Of a DNA stretch of 37,173 bases, positions 1,812 to 24,360 are shown one piece after another (the first letter of the stretch is position 1; every line of letters starts with the position of its first letter). Below the pieces are notes generated by a model, which was not told the origin of the DNA, did no database searches, and saw only the letters and a list, made by a program, of their open reading frames with translations. This stretch comes from a virus. The DNA lies in IMG/VR virus record IMGVR_UViG_3300030085_002659, positions 24,269-61,441 of that record. One strand, given 5' to 3'. The position numbers and the translations under genes are program-made.

Positions 1812-2280
1812 CCATTTCTAATTTTCGTTCAAAATAATCTGCAGAATCTTTTATCTCTGGATTCTGTCTTATTGTTTGCATAGCAATCATATCTTTCATC
1901 TTAGTTGTTGACCAACCATGTGCTCTTGTTGTATAAACAACTTTTGGTGGTAAGTCATCACCTGTGAAAGGTTTTCCAATGTAATCCTCACCTAAGATTC
2001 TTACATCGGGTTTGAAAAACTTAATCAAATCGTAAAGTTCTTCTTCTGTCTGATATACATATACTTCATCGATATATTGGATTGCCATCAATGTACGATA
2101 TCTTTCGTATAATGGTATAACAGGTTTATATTTAGATTTTCTGTGTAGACTTGGGTCTCTCTGAAGAAATACTATAAAGTGGTCACAATGTCTCTTTGCC
2201 TCTTGGAATGTGTAAATATACCCAGGATGAATCAAATCAAAGTTTCCTGCAGTAAATCCAACTATTTTATTTTTTTTCAC
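1804..2280 (-). CDS. Cytidylyltransferase-like nucleotidyltransferase (TagD-type)
   Basis: This is a Rossmann nucleotidyltransferase resembling glycerol-3-phosphate cytidylyltransferase (TagD) and related CTP/ATP enzymes that activate alcohol phosphates. Visible motifs are GNFDLIHPGY (12-21) in place of GTFDxxHxGH, and WSTTKMKD (123-130), matching the ISTTxIK signature. The second catalytic His of HxGH is Tyr21, which may impair or alter catalysis; His18 is kept. Length (158 aa) is close to the family norm. It follows the J-domain gene with a 14-base overlap. It may activate an alditol phosphate or a sugar-1-phosphate-like substrate for the glycan genes, but the Tyr substitution leaves room for a non-catalytic role. 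Confidence 0.8.
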   Translation of the reverse strand: MKKNKIVGFTAGNFDLIHPGYIYTFQEAKRHCDHFIVFLQRDPSLHRKSKYKPVIPLYERYRTLMAIQYIDEVYVYQTEEELYDLIKFFKPDVRILGEDYIGKPFTGDDLPPKVVYTTRAHGWSTTKMKDMIAMQTIRQNPEIKDSADYFERKLEMDG

Positions 2281-2925
2281 TTTTACCTTTTAATAATTTC
2301 TTTGTCTGTTTCCTTAAATCAGGCGGAAGGTCCACATTTCTAATTTTTAATTTGGTCTCTTCCTCAACTCGTTGTACACAAAATTGTCTTTGACTTTTGT
2401 TTCCTCTACCCCATAACCAACCGATTGTATCTTTGATTCTGTTGATTTCATTTTCGAGTTCTCTTAAGTTTCTGGTCAACAAGATTTCATCATTCTTATC
2501 CATATTATAGTCAACCTCATATTCTGCTGCTAACTCTAACATTTTTCCCAAATCTTGTTTTTCATATGCCTCTTTAACCGATTGAAACTCTTGATGTTCC
2601 CCACCTAATTTATCTGGATGGGTCTTAGCCGCGAGTCTCTTATATAGATTCTTGACCTTTTTCGGAGCGTCCCTAAGTAGTTCTCTCTGTTCGTCAAGTT
2701 TCCGTTGTTGTTTTTCTCTCTCTTTCTTTGCATTCTCAAAGTGTGTTGCTGGGTTTTCGAATTCTTTCTGATTCTTTGTATTTTCTATCTTTGCTGCTTT
2801 TTTATAGTATTTATCAAAATATTTGTCAAAATCAGTTGTGTATTTTTCAAAGTCGTCTCTTACATCTTCCAACTCTAATTTCAAATACTCATACTTTAAC
2901 TTTAATATCTTGAGTTTTCTATCCA

Positions 2926-2926
<1 letters not shown>
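2267..2926 (-). CDS. J-domain (DnaJ-like) protein
   Basis: J-domain proteins stimulate the ATPase of Hsp70 (DnaK). The core here is KNLYKRLAAKTHPDKLGGE (92-110), with the diagnostic HPD at 103-105, followed by a helix (EFQSVKEAYEKQD). Unlike DnaJ, the J domain is central: the first ~90 residues are highly charged and predicted coiled-coil, and no zinc-finger or Gly/Phe region is present. The start is GTG at 2926, sharing one base with the GroEL stop (TAGTG), so the two genes are translationally coupled. Coupling to groEL suggests joint action in folding a phage protein. It probably recruits host DnaK, since no Hsp70 is in the window. Confidence 0.8.
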
Positions 2927-4527
<1,601 letters not shown>

Positions 4528-5136
4528 TTATTTACCTTTTTTTTGTTTTTCTCTTGCTTGTTTAATTTGTTCTGCTCTCCATTGAGGTTGTTTTCCACGA
4601 ATGTTTCCACGGAGATTATGGAAACAATTGTAACACAAGAATCTGATATTGTCCCTTTTGTGATTGGTCCAATCATCATCCATGTGGTCAAGAATCAAAG
4701 GTATAGTTCCATCTGTAACCCTTTTTTCATTGTAACCACAATTGTGACATTCATGCGGAAAATTTAATTCTTCTTTATGTGAATTGTTAATTAATCGTTT
4801 CTTTAGTAAAAAAACAGGATATTTAGGATGTTTACCATCTAATATATCATTCAATGCGTATTTACCTTGAGTTACATTATATGGTTTCTTTACACCCTTA
4901 CCTCTTTGATTCTTATGTAAGTCCCAAAGATTTTTACCTGATTCTTCGTCTTTATATAATTTAGAATATTTTTGATATGTAGTCAACGACACATTTAAGA
5001 ATCTTGCTGCGCCTGAGTTTGACTTTGAGTTCTTCATCGCATACCGAATCTGACTCTCTGTTAGGTTCAAGGGAGTTCGTCCCTTTCCTAAAACATAACC
5101 ATTCGGTAATTTAAAACCCTTTTTCATATCTTTCAT
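4528..5136 (-). CDS. HNH endonuclease with helix-turn-helix-like N-terminus
   Basis: A 202-aa predicted HNH nuclease. Two zinc-binding Cys pairs (C130/C133 in CHNCGY; C168/C171 in CYNCF) flank the catalytic strand LILDHMDDDW (147-156, His151), followed by N163. Residues 24-60 (LTESQIRYAMKNSKSNSGAA and after) look like a helix-turn-helix of the kind used by homing endonucleases to find a DNA site. It starts just after an AT-rich gap and ends three bases before groEL, so it interrupts an otherwise GroES-GroEL arrangement. It may be a free-standing homing endonuclease or a nuclease used in host or competitor DNA cleavage. Confidence 0.85.
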   Translation of the reverse strand: MKDMKKGFKLPNGYVLGKGRTPLNLTESQIRYAMKNSKSNSGAARFLNVSLTTYQKYSKLYKDEESGKNLWDLHKNQRGKGVKKPYNVTQGKYALNDILDGKHPKYPVFLLKKRLINNSHKEELNFPHECHNCGYNEKRVTDGTIPLILDHMDDDWTNHKRDNIRFLCYNCFHNLRGNIRGKQPQWRAEQIKQAREKQKKGK

Positions 5137-5153
5137 TTATATATAAATATGGT

Positions 5154-5366
5154 CTACCCATATTTTTGTACTATACTTTCCAAAAATTGGAATTCTTTGT
5201 AACTTAAGGTCATCCTCTTTTTCTCTATCTTCTGCCTTAAATCATACAATTTCTTTTTATCTTTATATTGGAAAATACCTTTTATATGTTTTGGATTAGA
5301 ATATAGAATTTCTTCTGCACTCCTCACATAACTAAAGTGTCGCCAAAGTTCTTTTTCTATTATCAT
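5154..5366 (-). CDS. Hypothetical protein (70 aa)
   Basis: The preferred start is the ATG at 5366, overlapping the previous stop as ATGA; an in-frame ATG at 5372 would add two residues. It is a charged, helical-looking protein (IEKELWRHFSYVRSAEEILY, then KKKLYDLRQKIEKKRMTLSY) with no membrane segment. No family recognised. It is co-transcribed between the membrane protein and the HNH gene. Confidence 0.7.
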   Translation of the reverse strand: MIIEKELWRHFSYVRSAEEILYSNPKHIKGIFQYKDKKKLYDLRQKIEKKRMTLSYKEFQFLESIVQKYG

Positions 5367-5707
5367 TTCCATAATACCTGAACACCTAATAATAGAGTAG
5401 CTAATACTAATGATACTGCGACCTTTGGAGTGATTCCTTCATTGAAGAACTTTGCAACCATGACTGCGTACACAACCATACCCACACCAAATCCTAAGAA
5501 TCTTGCAGGCCATAACAATCCATCAAAACCTTCTACTGCGTATTTAGTTCCCCATATATAAAAGTATGATATTGGTATACCAAATAATGCCAGTAGAAAA
5601 GTATTCTCTTTAAACCATTCCCACTTGAATTGTCCATTTAGTTGAAAGAACACTGCGATGTGTCCTACCAAAAACCAAAATAAACCCAACAACACATACC
5701 TATTCAT
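5363..5707 (-). CDS. Four-helix integral membrane protein
   Basis: 114 residues with about four hydrophobic segments: VLLGLFWFLVGHIAVFF (5-21), FLLALFGIPISYFYIWG (37-53), LGFGVGMVVYAVMVAKFF (71-88) and VAVSLVLATLLLGVQVLW (96-113). It sits directly after GroES (TAATG junction) and before a small gene. No enzymatic motif. It could be an inner-membrane effector or holin-like protein, but no lysis gene is adjacent. Function unknown. Confidence 0.75.
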   Translation of the reverse strand: MNRYVLLGLFWFLVGHIAVFFQLNGQFKWEWFKENTFLLALFGIPISYFYIWGTKYAVEGFDGLLWPARFLGFGVGMVVYAVMVAKFFNEGITPKVAVSLVLATLLLGVQVLWK

Positions 5708-6021
5708 TATCCGTTGATTTTCATTAGTATTTCTTGCTCTCTGTATAGATTTACTTTTTCACCATCTAACTTAAGTTGGATTCCTGTATTAGGTACAATT
5801 ACCATATCACCAACTTTTAATTTCATAGGTATTTCTGTACCTGTTGAGGTAAATATACCACTACCAACTGCGAGTACTTCACCTTTCATCTGTTCTTTGT
5901 TAGATTCAGGTTTGTATAACCCACCTTTGGTCTTTTCCTCTTCTTTGATTACTTTGACTAAAACATAGTCATTTAGTGGTTCATACGATTGCCACCACTT
6001 CTTTTTTGCAGTCTTTGCCAT
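5707..6021 (-). CDS. groES: GroES-like co-chaperonin
   Basis: A 104-aa GroES-family lid protein. Family features are EPLNDYVLVKV (14-24; compare RPLHDRVIVK), KTKGGLYKP leading into the mobile loop, GEVLAVGSG (48-56), LKVGDMVIVP (68-77) and EQEILMKI at the C-terminus. It has an N-terminal basic extension (MAKTAKKKWWQSY). Together with the phage GroEL it would form a dedicated folding chamber. A possible Bacteroidota-type promoter lies just upstream (6042-6072). It is separated from groEL by a membrane protein, a small gene and an HNH gene. Confidence 0.92.
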   Translation of the reverse strand: MAKTAKKKWWQSYEPLNDYVLVKVIKEEEKTKGGLYKPESNKEQMKGEVLAVGSGIFTSTGTEIPMKLKVGDMVIVPNTGIQLKLDGEKVNLYREQEILMKING

Positions 6022-6576: not shown

Positions 6577-6927
6577 TTATACCGTTACACTATCAAACCC
6601 ACCATTCTTGTCAACAATAATTCCTTTTGCTCTGACTTGAGAAGGATTTTTATCACTTTTATTGTTGATTAAGATTCTCTCAGCTCTACCGATTCCCATC
6701 ACTAACTGATGGAATGGTATTCCTAAGATATCCATTTCTTGAATTGTATCGTCTCTCAAAGACTCAGGTCTTGCGGTAGTCAATACAATATGGTGTCCAC
6801 TTTTGAACCATGAAACCATCTTGTCAACTACACCAGGCAATGCCTTAGATTTGAAAGGGTCAATATCATCGAAAGGTACTTGGTAAACCAAAGTCCCATC
6901 GATATCGCTAAAAATTGTTTTACTCAT
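6577..6927 (-). CDS. Small HAD-family phosphatase
   Basis: HAD (haloacid dehalogenase) fold hydrolase, 116 aa. Motif I is IFSDIDGTLVYQ (5-16; nucleophile Asp8, acid/base Asp10), motif II is VLTTARPE (48-55, Thr50). A following basic segment with RAERILINNK replaces the usual Lys motif III, and a clear motif IV DD pair is not seen, so activity is uncertain. It resembles phosphatases in polysaccharide gene clusters and may dephosphorylate a sugar or nucleotide. Promoter P1 (6933-7009) lies immediately upstream and the leader ends GAGAAAATATG. Confidence 0.78.
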   Translation of the reverse strand: MSKTIFSDIDGTLVYQVPFDDIDPFKSKALPGVVDKMVSWFKSGHHIVLTTARPESLRDDTIQEMDILGIPFHQLVMGIGRAERILINNKSDKNPSQVRAKGIIVDKNGGFDSVTV

Positions 6928-6932
6928 ATTTT

Positions 6933-7009
6933 CTCATTTTTACAGTACTAAAGTACAAAATTTATTTATAATTTCCAAACTTTTAATGTTAAATAATTGT
7001 TAAATTTTA
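6933..7009 (-). promoter_or_regulatory. Early-type promoter P1 with tandem TTTAACA repeats
   Basis: One of three aligned 77-base intergenic copies (also 8739-8815 and 9453-9529). On the minus strand it begins at the stop of the upstream gene, carries two TTTAACA heptamers 11 bases apart, then TTTGG (-33-like), 19 bases, TACTTTAG (-7-like, TAnnTTTG type), and ends TGTAAAAATGAG. The three copies align without gaps. Spacing and motifs match Bacteroidota housekeeping promoters, and the paired repeats could be an upstream element or an operator. Confidence 0.7.
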
Positions 7010-7648
7010 CCAGTTTTCTCTTCTTTTTTGTTCGTCATCCCACACCCAACTCATCAATCTTGTTTCTTCTACATCATGCAGAACGATTGTTTTATCTGTA
7101 ATTTTACTATCGTAGAAATATTCATATCCAAAACAAGCAACATCACCTTCTATTTCTTGAATAATTCTATCAGAAAACATCTTACAACCATTTGCCCAAT
7201 TTATATCGTGATAAGTGTCCATTAATTGATAAATCATTCTTGCGCCAGGCGTTGAACCATATACAGTACAATCGAATAGTGTATTGTTTGCTTGAGTTGG
7301 TTTCAAACCTGTAAAGAATGTTATATTTTCTGAAAGTTGATTTAGAACAATATCAAATGATTGAACTGGCTTACAATCTGCATCACAATATATTCCACCA
7401 TAGTCTCTAAGTAATAGTAATCTAATTCTATCACATATAAATGCCCATCGATATACATCCGGCTTTTTGAGATAATTTATTAAGTATGGGTCATCTTTGT
7501 ACATTTCAAATACCTCATTACCCCAAACTTTACAATCATAATCAAGATTTACTACTGCCATGTCATCAGTAAACTTTTTGATATAATCAGGTATGGGTTT
7601 TTCACCAATCCATAGTTGGTGTATTATTTTAGGTATTTTTGTTTTCAT
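7007..7648 (-). CDS. Glycosyltransferase with DXD motif (GT32-like)
   Basis: Transfers a sugar from a nucleotide donor, probably onto a glycan or protein acceptor. It starts IPKIIHQLWIGEKPIP (5-20), a hallmark of the Gly_transf_sug/GT32 group, and has RIRLLLLRDYGGIYCDADCKP (75-94, one residue longer than written here if Arg74 is counted from the helix), with the metal-binding DAD at 89-91. At 213 aa it is compact but complete through the core. It lies away from the main glycan cassette and its stop is inside promoter P1. It overlaps the SWIM gene by four bases. Confidence 0.85.
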   Translation of the reverse strand: MKTKIPKIIHQLWIGEKPIPDYIKKFTDDMAVVNLDYDCKVWGNEVFEMYKDDPYLINYLKKPDVYRWAFICDRIRLLLLRDYGGIYCDADCKPVQSFDIVLNQLSENITFFTGLKPTQANNTLFDCTVYGSTPGARMIYQLMDTYHDINWANGCKMFSDRIIQEIEGDVACFGYEYFYDSKITDKTIVLHDVEETRLMSWVWDDEQKRRENW

Positions 7649-7833
7649 ATACTTAAGTGTCCTAATTTTTCGTGTAACCTCTTCATGTGTTTACATGGTG
7701 AATAGGGTCTAAACTCTCTTGCTTTACATTCACAATCTGATATGTGGTAATCGATAACAGTTACATTGTAATAAGACAATTTACCTGTCTTCTTGTTACG
7801 ACTACCCATTTCTCTATACTGCCACTTCCTCAT
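7645..7833 (-). CDS. SWIM zinc-finger protein (62 aa)
   Basis: The CxCx(10)CxH pattern CECKAREFRPYSPCKH (34-49) is a SWIM zinc finger, a module that binds DNA or proteins and is seen in transposases, helicases and small phage proteins. The rest is a short basic lead. It overlaps the previous gene by 20 bases; an alternative in-frame ATG at 7809 would give a non-overlapping 54-aa product. A regulator or nucleic-acid-binding accessory is likely. Confidence 0.75.
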   Translation of the reverse strand: MRKWQYREMGSRNKKTGKLSYYNVTVIDYHISDCECKAREFRPYSPCKHMKRLHEKLGHLSI

Positions 7834-8101
7834 CGTCTATTTTTTTCATTAGTAAATCATACGACAATTCAGTTGGTTCTTGAAATAGAACCTCATGGTC
7901 ACGATACTCAAACTTTTCCAAGTCATTGGATTGTTCCTTAACTATCTCAGTTAGTTTACCTTCCAAGTCATCGGTATACATTACAACATCCGTTGCGACT
8001 TCCATTGTGAACTGATGTCCACCTTTCGGTTTCCAATGAGTTCGTCCCTCATGGAATCCATAATTCTCATAATACTGAGTATCAATTACAATCTTTGCCA
8101 T
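7814..8101 (-). CDS. Conserved-looking phage hypothetical protein (95 aa)
   Basis: Begins MAKIVIDTQYYENYGFHEG, with a WKPKGGHQF segment soon after; this resembles small phage proteins of unknown function. The C-terminal half is acidic. The leader TTAAGAAATATG matches that of neighbouring genes. Cytoplasmic, no cysteines. Function unknown. Confidence 0.75.
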   Translation of the reverse strand: MAKIVIDTQYYENYGFHEGRTHWKPKGGHQFTMEVATDVVMYTDDLEGKLTEIVKEQSNDLEKFEYRDHEVLFQEPTELSYDLLMKKIDDEEVAV

Positions 8102-8113
8102 ATTTCTTAATTT

Positions 8114-8269
8114 TTAATGAACAATAAAATCTGTTAACTCTTCACCGATACCAACTCCGTTTTTAGTTATCTCATAACTGGGGTCCATACCTGAACTAAT
8201 TACTGAATCAACTAGCTCTTGAATCGTATCAAAACTTTTATCATAATAACTACAATCTAAACTATACAT
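8114..8269 (-). CDS. Small hypothetical protein (51 aa)
   Basis: I place the start at ATG 8269 (MYSLDCSYYDKSFDTIQELV) because it is preceded by ATAAAAAATATG, the leader shared by neighbours, and because this avoids overlapping the small membrane gene at 8281-8421. In-frame ATGs at 8287 and 8302 are alternatives. Acidic C-terminus. No family recognised. Confidence 0.6.
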   Translation of the reverse strand: MYSLDCSYYDKSFDTIQELVDSVISSGMDPSYEITKNGVGIGEELTDFIVH

Positions 8270-8280
8270 ATTTTTTATTT

Positions 8281-8421
8281 TTAACATGGACAGAATATCC
8301 ATAATGAAACATATAACAATGCGAAAACTCCACCTATAAACAAGGTAGAAACAATTGCCTCTACTGGGTTTTCAATCAAATATTTTACTGCCTCTTTATT
8401 AAATTCGTACCAATCTTTCAT
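8281..8421 (-). CDS. Small single-pass membrane protein (46 aa)
   Basis: Read directly: ATG at 8421, TAA at 8281-8283, leader GTAAAAAATATG. The N-terminus is soluble (MKDWYEFNKEAVKYLIENP), followed by a strong hydrophobic stretch (AIVSTLFIGGVFALLYVSLW) and a short C-P-C end. It fits a one-helix inner-membrane peptide such as an anti-host or superinfection factor. It is just downstream of the terminator at 8443-8495, so it may need its own or read-through transcription. Confidence 0.6.
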   Translation of the reverse strand: MKDWYEFNKEAVKYLIENPVEAIVSTLFIGGVFALLYVSLWIFCPC

Positions 8422-8442
8422 ATTTTTTACTTTTTAGTTTTT

Positions 8443-8495
8443 AAAAAAAAGGTGGTTTGTTTCACAGGTTTTTGTCCCTTAAGTCTAACCACCTT
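8443..8495 (-). terminator. Rho-independent terminator
   Basis: On the minus strand AAGGTGGTT (8495-8487) pairs perfectly with AACCACCTT (8457-8449), followed by a run of eight T (8450-8443). The loop is long (29 bases), so the stem may be helped by internal pairing. It lies 21 bases after the stop of the gene ending at 8516. Confidence 0.65.
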
Positions 8496-8515
8496 AAGAA
8501 AAGACTTGCGTTTCT

Positions 8516-8722
8516 TTATGCAAATGAGCCACTATTGATAAACTTACTAACAACTCCGTATTCTGAGTGACTTAAAGCGTCATACCAATCTGATGCCACC
8601 TCATCTTCTACAAGAGATATCGGACAATCAAAGTCTGGCTTGTTGTTAACAAATGATGGATAAACAATTCCTGTGTTGGTATCGACCCAACTTCCTACTG
8701 ATTTCAATTCTACTAAATTCAT
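8516..8722 (-). CDS. Small hypothetical protein (68 aa)
   Basis: The start is taken as ATG 8722 (MNLVELKSVGSWVDTNTG), preceded by ATTAAAAAATATG. An upstream in-frame ATG at 8743 lies at the expected transcription start of promoter P2, so is unlikely. Acidic, with IVYPSFVNNKPDFDCPISL in the middle. Followed by the terminator at 8443-8495, making this probably a single-gene transcription unit. No family recognised. Confidence 0.65.
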   Translation of the reverse strand: MNLVELKSVGSWVDTNTGIVYPSFVNNKPDFDCPISLVEDEVASDWYDALSHSEYGVVSKFINSGSFA

Positions 8723-8738
8723 ATTTTTTAATTTATTA

Positions 8739-8815
8739 CTCATTATTACACTACTAATATCGTTAATTTTTTTGACAATTCCAAATTTTTAATGTTAAGA
8801 AATTGTTAAATTTTA
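8739..8815 (-). promoter_or_regulatory. Early-type promoter P2 with tandem TTAACA repeats
   Basis: Second copy of the 77-base element. Minus strand: TTTAACA, then CTTAACA 11 bases on, TTTGG, 19 bases, GATATTAG as the -7-like box, ending TGTAATAATGAG. Its -7 box is the weakest of the three. It drives the gene ending at 8516. Confidence 0.65.
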
Positions 8816-9427
8816 TACACATCCCATTATTGAATCGATGTTCTTAAGAACACTTTTACTCATGTATTCTTTATTCCAAGATAACCAGCCACCTTTTTGA
8901 ACAACCTTGTCAATATATTCTTGAGTGTTGTCATTTTGGTGAGTGTAGTTCTTACTGATTTCACACCACTCGTTCCACTCTTTTATCCAATATTCTTTTG
9001 AACCCCAATTAGGTTTGTTCTCAATAAAGATGTAAGAAGGGAAATACTTTAATGGAGTGCCATTGTCAGTAGTTGGTGAATCTTCTCTCATTTCGTACAT
9101 ATCAATCATACCATTGAAAGTACCACCTTGTAAGACACCTTTCCAAGTCTCTATCTTTTGAAAATCAATAGGGTCTACTTTAGAACCATCTTTCTTACAG
9201 ACATTCACTCTTACTGAAGAACCACCACTATAAACATCAGAAGTAGCGGAACAAACTAAGTTAGGAAAGTTTTTCTTGACATATTGTTTGATTATCGAAG
9301 CGCAATACTTTGCTCTCATTTGGATGTAAGTTTCGTCATCCCATTGAGTTGAACCTTTTAGTACTAATGCTGCTTTTGGTAATTCGTAGATATCACCATT
9401 GATTGTTAATTTGATTTTTTTACTCAT
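8813..9427 (-). CDS. Phage protein with LPD29-like region (204 aa)
   Basis: The start is taken as ATG 9427 (MSKKIKLTINGDIYELPKAA), preceded by ATTAAAAAATATG; an in-frame ATG at 9457 lies at the predicted transcription start of P3. The region KYCASIIKQYVKKNFPNLVC followed by SDVYSGGSSVRVNV resembles the LPD29 domain (large polyvalent protein-associated domain), seen in phage and mobile-element proteins. The C-terminal third is Trp-rich and unassigned. Driven by its own promoter, so it may act early in infection. Function unknown. Confidence 0.7.
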   Translation of the reverse strand: MSKKIKLTINGDIYELPKAALVLKGSTQWDDETYIQMRAKYCASIIKQYVKKNFPNLVCSATSDVYSGGSSVRVNVCKKDGSKVDPIDFQKIETWKGVLQGGTFNGMIDMYEMREDSPTTDNGTPLKYFPSYIFIENKPNWGSKEYWIKEWNEWCEISKNYTHQNDNTQEYIDKVVQKGGWLSWNKEYMSKSVLKNIDSIMGCV

Positions 9428-9452
9428 ATTTTTTAATTTATATTTACTATTT

Positions 9453-9529
9453 CTCATTCTTACATAGTAAAGATAGTGAAAAAATGTGGTTTCGCCAAAT
9501 TTCTAATGTTAAATAATTGTTAAATTTTA
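9453..9529 (-). promoter_or_regulatory. Early-type promoter P3 with tandem TTTAACA repeats
   Basis: Third copy of the 77-base element. Minus strand: TTTAACA twice 11 bases apart, TTTGG, 19 bases, TATCTTTA (-7-like; 7 of 8 to TAnnTTTG apart from the last base), ending TGTAAGAATGAG. It starts at the stop codon of the sulfotransferase gene and drives the gene at 8813-9427. Confidence 0.7.
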
Positions 9530-10159
9530 CCTAAATTTGAATTTTTTTCGTGGTTTTTCCCACATATCATAGACTTCGTCTTTTTCATATCCAAAATTAA
9601 CATAATCATCGTAAAATCTATCATAACAAACTTGTCTAAGGTGTTCTTCATCAAATGAAACTCTTGGAAAGACTGATTTACCTATAAATGGAATCTCAAA
9701 ATCATCAGGCATAAACCACAACTCTTTTAAGTCTTCTTTAATACTTTCTGCTCTGATAAGTAAATCTATTTGTGGTCCAACATTTTTGATTCCATTCCAT
9801 AATCCCCACCCATTTATCCAATCTTGTGACATAGATTGTAGAGATTCTATTGGTCCAGTTTTAGGGTCATCAATTTCGTGTTGTTGTCCTGAGTATGCGT
9901 ACTTCCAATAACTTAACCACCTATAATATGGATGTCTGATACTAGCTATGTGAATATAATCATCACCTGCCTCTTCAGGCCAAATGTTTACATGAGTAAA
10001 ATTAGATGGATGTTCTTCACTTGGCCAATCAGGGTTTAAATCACAATGTTCTATAAAAATATCTCTTACAGACCTTGATGCAACCTTTGCAGGTGCAGTC
10101 CATACAAATTTGTATTTGTGACTTATATTTGCACCCCTTTTTTGACTATCAAATGACAT
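9527..10159 (-). CDS. Sulfotransferase-family protein
   Basis: Sulfotransferases move a sulfuryl group from PAPS to a sugar, lipid or protein. The signature here is TAPAKVASRSVRDIF (21-35), equivalent to the 5'-phosphosulfate binding loop, and SIRHPYYRWLSYWKY (73-87), matching the 3'-phosphate binding RxPxxRxxS motif. Length (210 aa) fits a small carbohydrate sulfotransferase-like protein. It adjoins the DUF6445 gene at a TAATG junction. No PAPS synthesis genes are in the window, so host PAPS would be needed. The substrate could be a phage or host surface glycan. Confidence 0.78.
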   Translation of the reverse strand: MSFDSQKRGANISHKYKFVWTAPAKVASRSVRDIFIEHCDLNPDWPSEEHPSNFTHVNIWPEEAGDDYIHIASIRHPYYRWLSYWKYAYSGQQHEIDDPKTGPIESLQSMSQDWINGWGLWNGIKNVGPQIDLLIRAESIKEDLKELWFMPDDFEIPFIGKSVFPRVSFDEEHLRQVCYDRFYDDYVNFGYEKDEVYDMWEKPRKKFKFR

Positions 10160-11813: not shown

Positions 11814-12077
11814 TTATACCCTTTTCTGAAACTTTCGTTTTAATCTTTTCTGTTTCTCAGTTTCTTCTCTTACGGAGTGTACACTATCTGCCGAACCTGG
11901 CTGACCTTTTACTTTATAGGGAAACATCTTATTTAGTTTATCCTGGCGTTCATCACACCCACAATCGTCTGCTCCTGCCACTTCTGCAATCTTTTCAGCA
12001 AGTTTATCTAACTTTGTGGCCGATGTGATTTTTTTAATTGTATCACCCAATCCTTTTGATTGTTCATTCCATTTCAT
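11814..12077 (-). CDS. Small phage protein with CGCxxRQ motif (87 aa)
   Basis: Begins at ATG 12077 (MKWNEQSKGLGDTIKKITSA), overlapping the ClpS gene; an in-frame GTG at 12086 is less likely. A CGCDERQDKLNKMFPY segment follows (about 39-54), a pattern that looks like small phage proteins with a possible metal- or DNA-binding Cys pair. C-terminus is highly basic (KQKRLKRKFQKRV). Function unknown. Confidence 0.7.
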   Translation of the reverse strand: MKWNEQSKGLGDTIKKITSATKLDKLAEKIAEVAGADDCGCDERQDKLNKMFPYKVKGQPGSADSVHSVREETEKQKRLKRKFQKRV

Positions 12078-12303
12078 AATTTTCACCTATTTCAACATTG
12101 AAACCATCTTTAAGAAACAATTGATATAGGTTTTCAACCATTACCATGTCCCCTGTATAAATATCACACTTTCCATTATTATGTACTATTTGAGCTATCG
12201 ATTGTCCCTGTGTCATTGGATACGACAAATACTTTCTTAGTACTCTAATAACATCCTCAAAAGAGTGATGGTCATCATTTAATAAATATAGTGTTGAATT
12301 CAT
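12064..12303 (-). CDS. ClpS-like adaptor for Clp protease (79 aa)
   Basis: ClpS binds N-degron substrates and delivers them to the ClpAP/ClpCP protease. Features seen are YLLNDDHHSFEDVIRVLRK (6-24), with the NDD (9-11) that contacts the substrate N-terminus, then QSIAQIVHNNGKCDIYTGD (34-52), carrying the expected His41 and the VHxxGKCxxxTG run I associate with Bacteroidota ClpS. The length (79 aa) is just the core; the N-terminal extension that engages ClpA is nearly absent. It may therefore bind N-degrons and alter or block delivery. Start ATG overlaps the preceding TGA. Confidence 0.8.
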   Translation of the reverse strand: MNSTLYLLNDDHHSFEDVIRVLRKYLSYPMTQGQSIAQIVHNNGKCDIYTGDMVMVENLYQLFLKDGFNVEIGENYEME

Positions 12304-12692: not shown

Positions 12693-13076
12693 CTACATTT
12701 TTGCGATAGCTTCAGAGAAAATCCACCCTAATACACCAATTAGTCCACTAAAAAGTACCCAAAGTGCCTTTACAACACCACTTTTCCACTCTTGAAGTTT
12801 ATCTAATTCGTTTTTTAATTCTGATATTTCTTCAGGTAATTCACCTGCATTTTTTCTGAATTCAGTATTTTTGTTTACTCTGACAATTACACCATTTTCT
12901 GGATTAAGTAAGGTATATTTTATATCTGAGAAATCTTCCTTTAAATCTTGTTGAAACTCATGTAGAGCATTGATTGTTTGTTCCATTCGTTTAAGTTCAC
13001 CATTTGGTAACTTAGTTTTCATCTTCCCAATCTCTGCGAGAATCTCGTTGAGTATGTCTTTTTGTGTACCTGCCAT
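12693..13076 (-). CDS. Coiled-coil protein with C-terminal membrane helix (127 aa)
   Basis: About 100 residues of charged coiled-coil (two blocks around 1-50 and 75-93) followed by a hydrophobic segment ALWVLFSGLIGVLGWIFSEA (104-123). This layout is shared by XhlA-like phage lysis accessories, which help holin function at the inner membrane. No signal peptide. It could alternatively be a membrane-tethered scaffold. A ribosome-binding site AAAAGGG lies upstream. Confidence 0.7.
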   Translation of the reverse strand: MAGTQKDILNEILAEIGKMKTKLPNGELKRMEQTINALHEFQQDLKEDFSDIKYTLLNPENGVIVRVNKNTEFRKNAGELPEEISELKNELDKLQEWKSGVVKALWVLFSGLIGVLGWIFSEAIAKM

Positions 13077-13096
13077 TGCGTAAATCCCTTTTATTT

Positions 13097-13825
13097 TTAT
13101 AAATATGAAGTTTTATACCAAATCGCAGCTTTACTATCTGATTTTTCGTGTTCTGGTCTATCTTTTGTAAAGTAATATAATGCGAATGAATATCTTGATA
13201 CTTCCTCAGGACAAACTAATGGTGTTGGGTGTCCATGTATTGAGTCATCCGTTGTATTAAATATTACTGCTCTATTAAATGTAGGTAGTATAGATTTTAC
13301 CTTAACTAATGGGTCTTTTTCATATAAATCTAAATGACCATTATAGTTCCAATTTGGAGTAAGATATAATAGTAAGTTAATTCTTCTCCAGATATCTTTG
13401 TTTGGATGTTTGTTATAGTCTGAATGTAATTCTAATCTACCACCATTTTTAATTTTGTGAATTCCACCACCTTCGAAGTCAACATCTGCAATCAAATCTT
13501 TTATGCCTGTTAAATTCTCTAAAAATAATAAAAATGGTCTTGAGTTAAAATATTGTAAACATTTCCAAACTGCGGGCATATCTGATTCTATTCTGTTTTT
13601 GGAATCTGTATCGAATGGAGTCCACCATTTATTTACCTGCGAGTCCCTTTCGTCTTCAGGATATCCCATCATAGAATCAAACATCCACTCTTGATGTTGA
13701 GACATTTGATTGTAACATTGTAACGCCAAGTCTTCTGGTATGAAGTCATCAATGACAATATGTGGAAACGGATTTGCTAATGCGTAGTTTGACCTACAAC
13801 TATCAGCCAATGATTTGTTTATCAT
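13097..13825 (-). CDS. 2OG-Fe(II) oxygenase, prolyl-hydroxylase-like
   Basis: 242 aa with the double-stranded beta-helix signature: GGRLELHSDYNKHP (128-141; iron ligands His134, Asp136), RRINLLLYLTPNW (147-159), DSIHGHP (194-200; His197 or His199) and RYSFALYYF (211-219; Arg211 for 2-oxoglutarate). This fits the P4H-like 2OG-FeII_Oxy_3 group. Such enzymes hydroxylate proline, sugars or other substrates. It ends with a four-base overlap onto the HAD gene upstream. Several related oxygenases occur in this window. Confidence 0.88.
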   Translation of the reverse strand: MINKSLADSCRSNYALANPFPHIVIDDFIPEDLALQCYNQMSQHQEWMFDSMMGYPEDERDSQVNKWWTPFDTDSKNRIESDMPAVWKCLQYFNSRPFLLFLENLTGIKDLIADVDFEGGGIHKIKNGGRLELHSDYNKHPNKDIWRRINLLLYLTPNWNYNGHLDLYEKDPLVKVKSILPTFNRAVIFNTTDDSIHGHPTPLVCPEEVSRYSFALYYFTKDRPEHEKSDSKAAIWYKTSYL

Positions 13826-14391
13826 AACTTATTTGTATATAATTCTTGTATATAATTCTCTAATATTTCTTTTCTCTGACTTGGTTTAAGATGTTCTACT
13901 GCAAGTACAGATTTGATTCTAACATTAGGATATTTTTTCTGTAATTTTTGTACTGCTCTTACATTCTTGATTGAGTCATCCATGAATGCGATATCAGTAT
14001 ATCCCTTCTCAATATGTTTCTCAATCCAATCTGCTTTGTCTTTAGGATTATTACTTGCTAATGTGACAGGATAAACATCCATACCATAAGTGTCTTTGAA
14101 AAACTTTCTGATTGGAAATCCTAATGCTCTTGCGGTTAATATTGTTACCTTTTTTTCTGGATTAGATAACATCTTCTGTAATAATTTGAAATTCTTTTTG
14201 ATTACTTTAGGATTGTTCAACATACTATTGAAATCTCTAAAGTCAAACTCATCACCCCTTTGTGGTTTGTATTTTGCGTATTGTCCAGGGTCTAATGTAG
14301 TTTCTGTACCATCTTTATGTGTAACATAGATATATGCGGTACTCTTTGCGAGTGTATCATCAAAATCAAAAACTCTTAATACTCTACCCAT
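13822..14391 (-). CDS. HAD-family phosphatase, DFDDT type
   Basis: 189 aa with motif I RVFDFDDTLAKS (6-17; Asp9, Asp11), motif II TILTARALG (84-92), and motif IV IAFMDDSIKN with the DD pair, plus Lys in NPKDKADWIEKH as motif III. This is a complete active-site set, comparable to the 3'-phosphatase domain of phage polynucleotide kinase, though no kinase P-loop is attached. Promoter P5 is just upstream. It may remove a phosphate from nucleic-acid ends or a sugar. Confidence 0.82.
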   Translation of the reverse strand: MGRVLRVFDFDDTLAKSTAYIYVTHKDGTETTLDPGQYAKYKPQRGDEFDFRDFNSMLNNPKVIKKNFKLLQKMLSNPEKKVTILTARALGFPIRKFFKDTYGMDVYPVTLASNNPKDKADWIEKHIEKGYTDIAFMDDSIKNVRAVQKLQKKYPNVRIKSVLAVEHLKPSQRKEILENYIQELYTNKL

Positions 14392-14407: not shown

Positions 14408-14439
14408 TAAATATACGAAAATATTCGCAAATATCCAAA
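14408..14439 (-). promoter_or_regulatory. Candidate Bacteroidota-type promoter P5
   Basis: Minus strand AAAAGTTTGG, then 19 bases, then TATATTTA (TAnnTTTG type, last base A). The upstream block AAAAGTTTGG is identical to that of P1, and spacing equals P1 and P3. It is followed by AAAAGG and the HAD ATG at 14391. Confidence 0.6.
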
Positions 14440-17745: not shown

Positions 17746-18150
17746 CTAAAACTGAGATGCCGACTTAACCTCATCTATATGTTCTTGTAACTCGTCTAAA
17801 GTAACAGGACATTCTAAATCTAATCCTGCTTTATAAACTTCCTCTTTTATACCATCTTTGAATACTATAATGGTCGGCGCCATTCGTATTCTATATTCTT
17901 TTTTAGCGTTTGGTGCAGTTGCTATATCAATTCTGTAATAGTGAGTTATTCCTTCAACTTTATCCCAATCGTGGAATGCGTTCTGTTCATTAAACTTTGC
18001 CCAAAACTCAACTATAACAATTGACATCTCATCGTCACCAAATGCGGACTTATTAGATATTTTTTCGTCAAAATTACTATCCGTAATCCAATCTTGTCCA
18101 AATGTGCTACCACTAATAAGTAACATCAATATCAATAACACTTTTTTCAT
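17746..18150 (-). CDS. Exported thioredoxin-fold protein without CXXC
   Basis: Signal peptide (MKKVLLILMLLISGSTFGQ). The body has the thioredoxin layout: VIVEFWAKFNEQNAF (45-59) where VVVDFWAxWCxxC would be, and RMAPTIIVFKDG (89-100) with the cis-Pro loop. The redox pair is replaced by N54-E-Q-N57, so it cannot be a dithiol oxidoreductase. It probably acts in the periplasm as a binding or chaperone-like module. Nearby genes are also envelope-directed. Confidence 0.82.
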   Translation of the reverse strand: MKKVLLILMLLISGSTFGQDWITDSNFDEKISNKSAFGDDEMSIVIVEFWAKFNEQNAFHDWDKVEGITHYYRIDIATAPNAKKEYRIRMAPTIIVFKDGIKEEVYKAGLDLECPVTLDELQEHIDEVKSASQF

Positions 18151-18162
18151 ACTAAACCCTAT

Positions 18163-18447
18163 TTAGTTATTCTTTTGTATTTCGTAGAGTCGTTCATCAA
18201 TCTTATCTAATTGTTCTTTTATATCATCTACATCATCTTGAGTATCTAAAATAGTCTGGCGAATTAATTCGTCCTTCAGGTCATACTCAGTTCTATCAAT
18301 AACAGGTGCGGGTAGTTCTTTTGCCTCTTGGATGTCACCTTGAAGAGTAAACCACATTCCAATAACTGTTGCGAGTGTAAAAACAATTACCCCGATTGTC
18401 TTTAAATCCAGGGTAATTTTAGTTTCTTCTGATACTTGCTTTGCCAT
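18163..18447 (-). CDS. Small membrane-anchored coiled-coil protein (94 aa)
   Basis: One TM segment (TIGVIVFTLATVIGMWFTLQ, about 17-36) and a charged C-terminal coiled coil (DTQDDVDDIKEQLDKIDERL). Positive N-terminus in. Likely periplasmic coiled coil anchored in the inner membrane, as in spanin or holin accessories. Function not recognised. Confidence 0.72.
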   Translation of the reverse strand: MAKQVSEETKITLDLKTIGVIVFTLATVIGMWFTLQGDIQEAKELPAPVIDRTEYDLKDELIRQTILDTQDDVDDIKEQLDKIDERLYEIQKNN

Positions 18448-22662: not shown

Positions 22663-23473
22663 AATTTTTTACCTTTTTAATTAAATCATCGTAGGTTTGT
22701 ACATGATATATTTTTTGACCTGATAGTTTAGGGAAGAATCTTTCATATGAGTTATGCTTTACTTCATACCCTTTTATTCCATATATAATATTTTGTCCAC
22801 CAAAGTATGATGCCAATGCTGAGTTACCACCTTGTGTTGATATATGATAATCACAATTACTCAAAACTGCCATTTGTGTTGTATTGTAATCTAACTTGTA
22901 ATCTTTTTGGAAGTCTTGCATCAATGGAATCCCCATTTGATTTGCCAAGTTCCAATCACCCCATACTCGTTGTGGACTTCCATCATTCGTAATATCAGTT
23001 GAGGATGGTCTATTATATACAACTTGAAATTTATCTTTACACAACTCAAATATTATTTGTAATGATTCTAAATCAATGTAATTTATAGGATGGTTACCCC
23101 ATTCTGTTTGAAACTTATTTGAGATTACCAATAATGGTTTCTCTAAAAACATTTCATACTTTGATTGATAATAATCTTTTAGATTTGGTGGTGACCATTT
23201 ATCTTCCCACATCAGTTTATCACCAACGACAGGTTTTGAAAAAACACCTGCCACATGATTATGTGGTTTGTAATAAGATTTACCATCGATGTCTACTCTT
23301 AAAAATGGTTCTCGTGAGTTGTATATTTCATTTACTTTTATATTCGGATAAAGTAACTTTGCACCAACTGCACCATTCACTACAATGTCTTGACCTTGCT
23401 CTTTATACCAATTCACTAAAGGTAGTGCGGTAAATAACTCGTAACCAAATTCACCATTAATATCGAATGTCAT
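22652..23473 (-). CDS. GT-B-like putative glycosyltransferase (273 aa)
   Basis: The start MTFDINGEFGYELFTALPLV resembles the N-terminal loop of heptosyl- and fucosyltransferase-like folds. A later YHISTQGGNSALASYFGGQ (208-226) is like the donor-binding loop that selects the nucleotide. No DXD motif, which fits a GT-B fold. It begins at a TAATG junction with the epimerase gene. Donor and acceptor unknown. Confidence 0.65.
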   Translation of the reverse strand: MTFDINGEFGYELFTALPLVNWYKEQGQDIVVNGAVGAKLLYPNIKVNEIYNSREPFLRVDIDGKSYYKPHNHVAGVFSKPVVGDKLMWEDKWSPPNLKDYYQSKYEMFLEKPLLVISNKFQTEWGNHPINYIDLESLQIIFELCKDKFQVVYNRPSSTDITNDGSPQRVWGDWNLANQMGIPLMQDFQKDYKLDYNTTQMAVLSNCDYHISTQGGNSALASYFGGQNIIYGIKGYEVKHNSYERFFPKLSGQKIYHVQTYDDLIKKVKNYVK

Positions 23474-24360
23474 TACAAATCCAATTTTAATTGTTTACCT
23501 TTATAAAGAGATTTTATGTAATCTTCTAATCTATCTTTTGGTTCCCAGTTAAGAAACTCTATTGCTTCATCAGACTCTCTGATTGTCTCTCTGTAATTAC
23601 CATGTTGGTCTGGAATATATACTTTAGTTGCACCACCATACTTTACAAACATATCAGCAACTTCATTGATTGAGTAATTCATACCTGTACCGAGTTCCCA
23701 TGCGTCAAATGTTGGTTTAACATCATGTCCATTCAATCTTAGTAATGCGTCAACAATATCGTATACATGAGTAAAGTCTCTTCTTTGTTCACCATCACCA
23801 ACGATTGTTATTGGTTCACCACTTTGAACTTGTCTTCTCCAGATACCAATCACTGCCGCCCAATCACCTTCGATAACTTCATGTGGTCCATAGACATTAT
23901 AGAATCTACAAATCTCAATATCCATATTGTAAGTTCTTTTATATAACTTACATAATTCTTCACCAAGATATTTACAAGCCGCATATGGTGATTGATATGG
24001 GTCGTGGTGTTTTGAAGATGAACCTGCGTAAATTACTTTTAAATCTTTTTTTCGTGCCCACTCAAGAACTCTTTGAGTGCCTATTGTGTTTACATTAAAG
24101 GTTTCTGATGGATTTTCGAAAGATGGCTGGATTCTTGATAGTCCAGCCAAGTGATAAACTAAATCAAAACTATCATCCATTCCAAAATAATAGTTTACAT
24201 ACTCAACCGTGCCCTCGACATAATGACACCCATTTACATGATTTTTTTCTGTACCTGTTGAGTAATCATCAAGAGATACTACTTCGTGTCCGTTTGTAAC
24301 TAATCTTTTAATTAAATTTGTACCGACAAATCCGGCACCGCCTGTAACTAATATTTTCAT
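23473..24360 (-). CDS. NAD-dependent nucleotide-sugar epimerase/dehydratase
   Basis: Extended SDR enzyme. TGGAGFVG (6-13) binds NAD, SSS (114-116) and YAACK (126-130) form the catalytic triad region, and CRFYNVYGP and GDGEQRRDFTHVYDI are typical of the UDP-glucose 4-epimerase/UDP-sugar branch. It would interconvert or dehydrate UDP- or dTDP-sugars to supply the glycosyltransferases around it. Length (295 aa) is near the family norm. Confidence 0.88.
   Translation of the reverse strand: MKILVTGGAGFVGTNLIKRLVTNGHEVVSLDDYSTGTEKNHVNGCHYVEGTVEYVNYYFGMDDSFDLVYHLAGLSRIQPSFENPSETFNVNTIGTQRVLEWARKKDLKVIYAGSSSKHHDPYQSPYAACKYLGEELCKLYKRTYNMDIEICRFYNVYGPHEVIEGDWAAVIGIWRRQVQSGEPITIVGDGEQRRDFTHVYDIVDALLRLNGHDVKPTFDAWELGTGMNYSINEVADMFVKYGGATKVYIPDQHGNYRETIRESDEAIEFLNWEPKDRLEDYIKSLYKGKQLKLDL

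Follow-up and report, generated by a model that had tools for sequence, protein, structure and literature searches.

Why do three intergenic segments of one viral genome, each running from the stop codon of one gene to the start of the next, have nearly the same sequence? The segments lie in a stretch of 37,173 nucleotides (nt), here called the window, which corresponds to positions 24,269 to 61,441 of the IMG/VR virus record IMGVR_UViG_3300030085_002659; the whole contig of 61,441 bp is designated G000. An earlier note on this DNA had described them as a Bacteroidota-type promoter with a possible operator. We give a probability of roughly three in four to the reading that they belong to a pre-late (early or middle) promoter class of T4-like Bacteroidota phages, which would be used by the host sigma-A polymerase and carries a paired, putatively activating box upstream. 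Class, architecture, spacing, strand, gene context and restriction to phages can be read directly from the DNA, whereas we infer that the element is transcribed, when and from which base, that its boxes activate and which kind of protein binds them.

A rigid element recurs on the contig and in related phages

The three window copies (6930-7009, 8736-8815 and 9450-9529, all on the minus strand) align without a gap, copies 2 and 3 being 79% and 71% identical to copy 1, respectively. Re-reading of the sequence bore out the arrangement noted earlier: after the TAA of the upstream gene come two boxes that repeat every 11 bp, then TTTGG, and, beyond a gap of 19 bases, a box like the -7 element and TGTAAnAATGAG. 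The uniformity claimed for the boxes holds for copies 1 and 3 but not for copy 2, the weakest in the window, whose second box is CTTAACA and whose -7 box, GATATTAG, is degenerate.

A motif search of the complete record, as the earlier note had proposed, found TTTAACA-N4-TTTAACA with at most one mismatch at ten places, all on the minus strand (seven exact, three with one mismatch). The reversed pattern and the other strand gave none. The complete arrangement, TTTAACA-N4-TTTAACA-N7-TTTGG-N19-TAnnTTTA/G-N4-GTAA, in which the G of GTAA is the predicted +1, is present at all ten. The description of a promoter used three times in a small-gene region was thus an undercount of what appears to be a genome-wide phage promoter class. 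The earlier note had also held that a lack of copies on related genomes would speak against its proposal; 20 phage records, some of which overlap one another (e.g., G004, G007 and G016), contain about 150 sites, on one strand per record except for a single site in G010, and the reversed control gave none.

The anatomy of the element was derived from 75 non-redundant sites. Numbering follows the mapped starts of Flavobacterium psychrophilum, for which the TAnnTTTG box spans -12 to -5 (PMC9723704), and the start position is accordingly a predicted one, five bases past the -7 box, with which the conserved GTAA agrees. The upstream half consists of AAA, box 1 (TTTAACA, -61 to -55), four A/T-rich bases and box 2 (tTTAACA, -50 to -44); the downstream half comprises TT, an A-rich stretch of five bases, TTTGG (-36 to -32, the -33 element), 19 bases, TAtcTTTA or TAtaTTTG (-12 to -5, the -7 box), four bases and GTAA. 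Both boxes contain a near-invariant C and are bordered by A-tracts. In the -7 box, TA is conserved at 97-99% and TTT at 87-100%, and the final base is A in 57% and G in 35% of the sites. GTAA, at +1 to +4, is conserved at 81% (G), 85% (T), 79% (A) and 76% (A); neither it nor the AAA before box 1 was part of the search pattern. The inter-block spacers have almost fully diverged while the boxes, the -33 and -7 elements and GTAA stay fixed. The spacer is 19 bases long in 87 of 88 fetched sites, a figure partly imposed by the search; when both gaps were allowed to vary, the 11-bp period and N7 persisted in 113 of 118 sites from 13 records.

GTAA, then, is the conserved downstream feature, and the ATGAG of the earlier note is conserved in a few copies only. 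A translational or leader-peptide role for ATGAG was ruled out, since the genes behind one copy are tRNA genes and no ATG is kept at this position across the copies.

Copies stand immediately ahead of genes and are kept at orthologues

Only 2 of 111 sites fall inside a same-strand open reading frame (ORF) of at least 80 amino acids, versus 68% of random positions, and an ORF start codon lies within 60 nt of +1 in 97 of them (36% of random positions). Upstream stop codons cluster at or within box 1. One G000 site stands 16 nt ahead of a tRNA-Arg/Met/Leu cluster, as does its equivalent in L016, and a site in L057 precedes tRNA-Leu by 10 nt; a purely translational role is excluded because copies stand just before tRNA genes.

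The promoter is kept at the orthologues of the genes behind copy 3 (4/4 phages), copy 1 (2/4, including G004) and copy 2 (2/2, including G002), as well as at those of an AAA ATPase and a 711-residue protein (4/4 each). Per-gene retention was also tallied as 4/4, 4/4, 4/4 and 3/3 phages. The claim of a Bacteroidota-type promoter is therefore well supported, by the TAnnTTTG-type -7 box of the core (PMC9723704), the intergenic sites, the tRNA genes that are driven and the retention at orthologues. The genes for the AAA ATPase, which is CobS/MoxR-like, and for the 711-residue protein, which matches VWA weakly, are neighbors at contig positions 5174-8659, and each of the two has a paired-box promoter to itself in 4/4 phages.

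In the window, copy 1 (6940-7004) has TTTAACA as box 1 (7004-6998) and box 2 (6993-6987), TTTGG at 6979-6975, N19, the -7 box TACTTTAG at 6955-6948 and GTAA at 6943-6940, with the predicted +1 G at 6943. The TAA of a glycosyltransferase-like gene (7007-7648) lies at 7007-7009, 2 nt ahead of box 1, and the first gene behind the promoter (6577-6927) encodes a HAD/polynucleotide-kinase-phosphatase-like protein of 116 residues. Copy 2 (8746-8810) comprises box 1 (8810-8804, TTTAACA), box 2 (8799-8793), TTTGG at 8785-8781, the -7 box at 8761-8754 and the predicted +1 G at 8749; it precedes a gene for a 75-residue protein of unknown family (8516-8743). Its box 1 follows by 2 nt the TAA (8813-8815) of the gene for a 214-residue LPD29-domain protein (8813-9457). 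This LPD29 gene is itself the first behind copy 3 (9460-9524), which has its boxes at 9524-9518 and 9513-9507, TTTGG at 9499-9495, the -7 box TATCTTTA at 9475-9468 and the predicted +1 G at 9463; the TAA of a sulfotransferase-like gene (9527-10159) occupies 9527-9529, again 2 nt ahead of box 1. All of these features are on the minus strand.

At window position 14438, also on the minus strand, a host-type core (TTTGG-N19-TATATTTA) has neither paired boxes nor GTAA and stands ahead of a gene for a 189-residue protein (13822-14391).

The sites occupy the non-structural block of T4-like genomes

Judged by their gene content, the related records are T4-like phages. The T4 Gp23 capsid protein (PF07068) was recognized in 9 of 17 site-bearing records with E values of about 1e-75 to 1e-79. 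G004, for example, encodes UvsX, a replicative helicase, SSB, ribonucleotide reductase, DNA polymerase, sliding clamp, clamp loader, sheath and baseplate proteins; this set has orthologs in G002 and G003, and gp43/44/45-type genes occur among the related records. G000 is a fragment without the capsid gene, collinear with the region from 73 to 137 kb of the 181-kb G004.

All 39 sites of G002, G003 and G004 (167-181 kb) lie in a central non-structural block that makes up 49-56% of the genome and contains the SSB, UvsX, helicase, ribonucleotide reductase, polymerase, clamp and clamp loader genes. The capsid, sheath and baseplate genes are outside it, with structural genes on both sides. The structural genes of the same phages (L127-L154) bear a different motif, TATTTATA / cATATTTATATA, which has no -33 element and occurs 54 times in sense versus 9 times in antisense orientation. 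This motif, which stands directly ahead of the structural genes, is likely to be a late promoter class. Because the paired-box sites sit in the non-structural block while the structural genes bear cATATTTATATA, the paired-box class is most likely pre-late, and genome position thus supports early (pre-late) use. The rule is not absolute, as sites stand beside the capsid gene in G008 and G012.

Within the window, TATTTATA is found at 5149, 13105, 20027 and 37063 (minus strand), ahead of several genes. The phage also encodes a chaperone and proteolysis set of GroEL, GroES, DnaJ-like, ClpS and Hsp20 homologs (window 2267-6021 and 12064-12303; contig 1367-1717).

The paired box is confined to phage DNA

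The strict full pattern, including the -33 and -7 elements, matched 69 stretches of viral contigs and had no match in 84,980 cellular genomes (257 Gb). Omission of the -7 box from the pattern gave 12 cellular matches, mostly in Bacteroidota. One of these is in L081 (contig 47 of G021), a phage-like contig with three sites in 76 kb that is binned with a Schleiferiaceae (Flavobacteriales) genome; this binning is a weak hint at the host. The promoter type and this one binned contig point to Bacteroidota as the host group. In 196 Flavobacteriales genomes, paired boxes with at most two mismatches occurred at 24 places, three of them in one phage-like contig, versus about 37 for the reversed control, and a single box with the exact core occurred once in 99 Flavobacteriales genomes, as did its control. 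The paired box, absent from the sampled chromosomes of the host group, thus probably marks phage genes for preferential transcription.

Nucleotide comparison of the window with named phages gave no match. A blastn search of the consensus against named phages returned short, weak matches only, and the element does not appear in the stretches read around those in Chryseobacterium phage MA9V-1, FCOV-S1, FpV4 and crAss-like records. In the open-access literature searched for TTAACA, TANNTTTG and promoters of T4-like Bacteroidota phages or Flavobacteriales myoviruses, no description of the element was found.

A host-type core with a phage-specific upstream module

The core resembles the Bacteroidota sigma-A promoter (TTG-N19-TAnnTTTG) in its TTTGG, its TAnnTTTA/G, its 19-bp spacer and, by analogy, the placement of the -7 box at -12 to -5 (PMC9723704); the phage element adds the paired TTTAACA and GTAA, which were not seen there in the sampled Flavobacteriales chromosomes. 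Early promoters of T4, with their UP, -35, TGn and -10 'uber' arrangement, are comparable in that they occur in many copies before pre-late genes, small unknown ORFs and tRNAs of T4-like phages and have, besides a host-type core, conserved sequence farther upstream than the -35 region (PMC2988021, PMC1524935). The phage element differs from them by its Bacteroidota-sigma core, by the GTAA conserved at its start and by having, in place of an A-rich UP element, a specific box of 7 bp that recurs after 11 bp and keeps an invariant C. With T4 middle promoters it shares a phage-specific box and a host -10-type element, but there the MotA box replaces the -35 element at -30, whereas the phage element keeps its -33 element with the boxes upstream, and so falls outside the MotA type. 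The T4 late promoter (TATAAATA, gp55) can be likened to TATTTATA, a short A/T motif before structural genes that has no -33 element; this likeness concerns that other motif class and not the paired-box element, and no sigma factor was identified for TATTTATA. Taken together, the paired-box class is best read as the Bacteroidota counterpart of T4 early/middle promoters.

In the mechanism that we propose, host polymerase with its primary sigma factor would recognize TTTGG (-36 to -32) and TAnnTTTA/G (-12 to -5) across the 19-bp spacer and start at the G of GTAA. Recognition by the sigma-A polymerase is suggested because the core matches known promoters. The two TTTAACA boxes, centered near -58 and -47 on the same helix face, would form an upstream activating element, in which two protomers of a sequence-specific protein read the boxes and contact the polymerase, so that phage promoters are favored over those of the host. 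A polymerase-contacting element is proposed because the boxes share a helix face, adjoin the -33 element on its upstream side and are rigidly spaced.

The boxes might instead be an UP element, bound directly as an A/T-rich pair by the C-terminal domains of the host alpha subunits without any extra protein, in the manner of T4 early promoters in Escherichia coli, which rely on these domains at similarly located UP elements (PMC2988021, PMC1524935). The A/T-rich paired subsites at -61 to -55 and -50 to -44 and their 11-bp phasing do overlap UP-element positions, A-tracts flank both boxes, and T4 early promoters, which are host-type with strong UP elements, also stand before tRNA genes and novel ORFs (PMC2988021, PMC1524935). 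If so, the class would be immediate-early. However, the C:G pair found invariably in either box does not resemble recognition of A-tracts through the minor groove, and the boxes do not recur at host promoters, although strong ones would be expected to carry them: neither the 196 genomes searched for the pair nor the 99 searched for a single box with the core showed an excess. We consider direct binding rather unlikely. Somewhat more probable, in our judgment, is an activator that the phage encodes or recruits. A dedicated protein, probably a phage-encoded one, is favored by the C that hardly varies in either box and by host chromosomes that lack such boxes. Whether this is an undescribed protein that sits as a pair on TTTAACA-N4-TTTAACA and redirects the Bacteroidota polymerase to pre-late genes is a more specific proposal, which we advance tentatively, at a little under even odds.

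The operator of the earlier note, through which a repressor would shut off early genes, was not borne out. Paired sites phased by one helical turn are typical of cooperative DNA-binding proteins, but here they lie upstream of -44, clear of the -33 and -7 elements and +1, an unusual place for a repressor, and their rigid distance to the core is that expected for polymerase contact; an activating element accounts better than a repressor site for boxes phased so regularly right next to the -33 element on its upstream side, and the operator is improbable. It could also be that these are ordinary host-like promoters with boxes devoid of any role, alike only through recent duplication or recombination of gene cassettes. 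Close likeness between the copies of one phage does occur, and T-even phages shuffle gene cassettes with their own promoter. Such an origin is very hard to reconcile with spacers that diverged around fixed boxes, -33, -7 and GTAA blocks, with the absence of the boxes from hosts, and with box-free promoters on the same contig.

Several observations weigh against the activated pre-late promoter class. The loci behind the 75-site logo were retrieved by the pattern itself, and conservation of the searched positions is therefore built in, which leaves G000 and the unsearched positions unaffected. Box-free core promoters also occur on G000 (window 14438; contig 20889 and 4747). These lack GTAA, which for this reason goes with the boxes. 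In hosts, a positive control with the core plus GTAA, an overly strict test, gave 24 matches versus 18 in 13 genomes; with so small an excess, the host core gains no independent confirmation here, and GTAA does not count among host features. The MotA-like domain PF09158 was not found in 9 records, but the control gave no match either, and absence of the protein is not proven by this result. A scan of the conserved small early proteins yielded no clear candidate for a DNA-binding activator. As for a promoter read by a phage sigma factor, sigma-70 region 4 (PF04545) had no match in 17 records and was positive in 14 control genomes, a search that diverged gp55-like factors would escape.

Bacteroidota have an unusual primary sigma factor and promoter; for the T4-like phages that infect them, a search of the open-access literature found no promoter class described. 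An activator of the proposed kind would amount to a phage takeover system in a phylum for which the literature searched describes no such class. A rigid, phage-restricted motif offers a means of annotating the pre-late operons, tRNA arrays and unknown RNAs of uncultured phages, of recognizing these phages from DNA pattern alone and of seeking the protein that reads the boxes. Genetic work in Bacteroidota might also gain strong promoters from it.

Terminator hairpins overlie some copies

In about 10 of the 75 sites, the spacer contains a CCAAA that can pair with TTTGG, together with extra complementary bases, and a T run follows (e.g., G000 contig position 1151, L012, L014, L023, L028, L041, L055 and L056). 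Pairing is stronger between the two arms of one site than between arms exchanged among sites (z about -6), and 6 of 47 independent sites reach -8 kcal/mol or below versus 0.6 expected. In this minority, an intrinsic terminator laid over the -33 element and spacer would end the upstream transcript where the next begins; such copies can thus serve as terminator of one transcript and promoter of the next, a compact design. The pairing of native arms could suggest that a terminator-promoter relay between adjacent genes is the core function of the element. This has very little likelihood, as strong stems are restricted to those few sites, and among the three window copies a stem is seen in copy 3 alone, where it is weak (-3.7 kcal/mol). 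The hairpin is therefore an overlay on a subset of copies rather than a general function.

Candidate folded RNAs behind paired-box promoters

Behind the paired-box promoter at contig position 23260 and just ahead of the tRNA cluster, we observed a non-coding region about 320 nt long that is rich in G+C and strongly folded (G000 minus strand, ~23200-22880; L010 ~3300-2980, minus). It is 99% identical in L016 and has weaker relatives in G004 (L133 319-698) and G002 (L139 ~17837-18248, minus), with further weaker homologs in G003 (L151 ~13032-13095) and L106. It matched no Rfam family and is a candidate for a new phage RNA family. In G010 (L067 1601-3936), nearly the same leader, GTCAAGTTAAGGGG...CCCC...CAAGTTGAACCATCTAAA, comes after each of several paired-box promoters and may be a repeated structured 5' leader.

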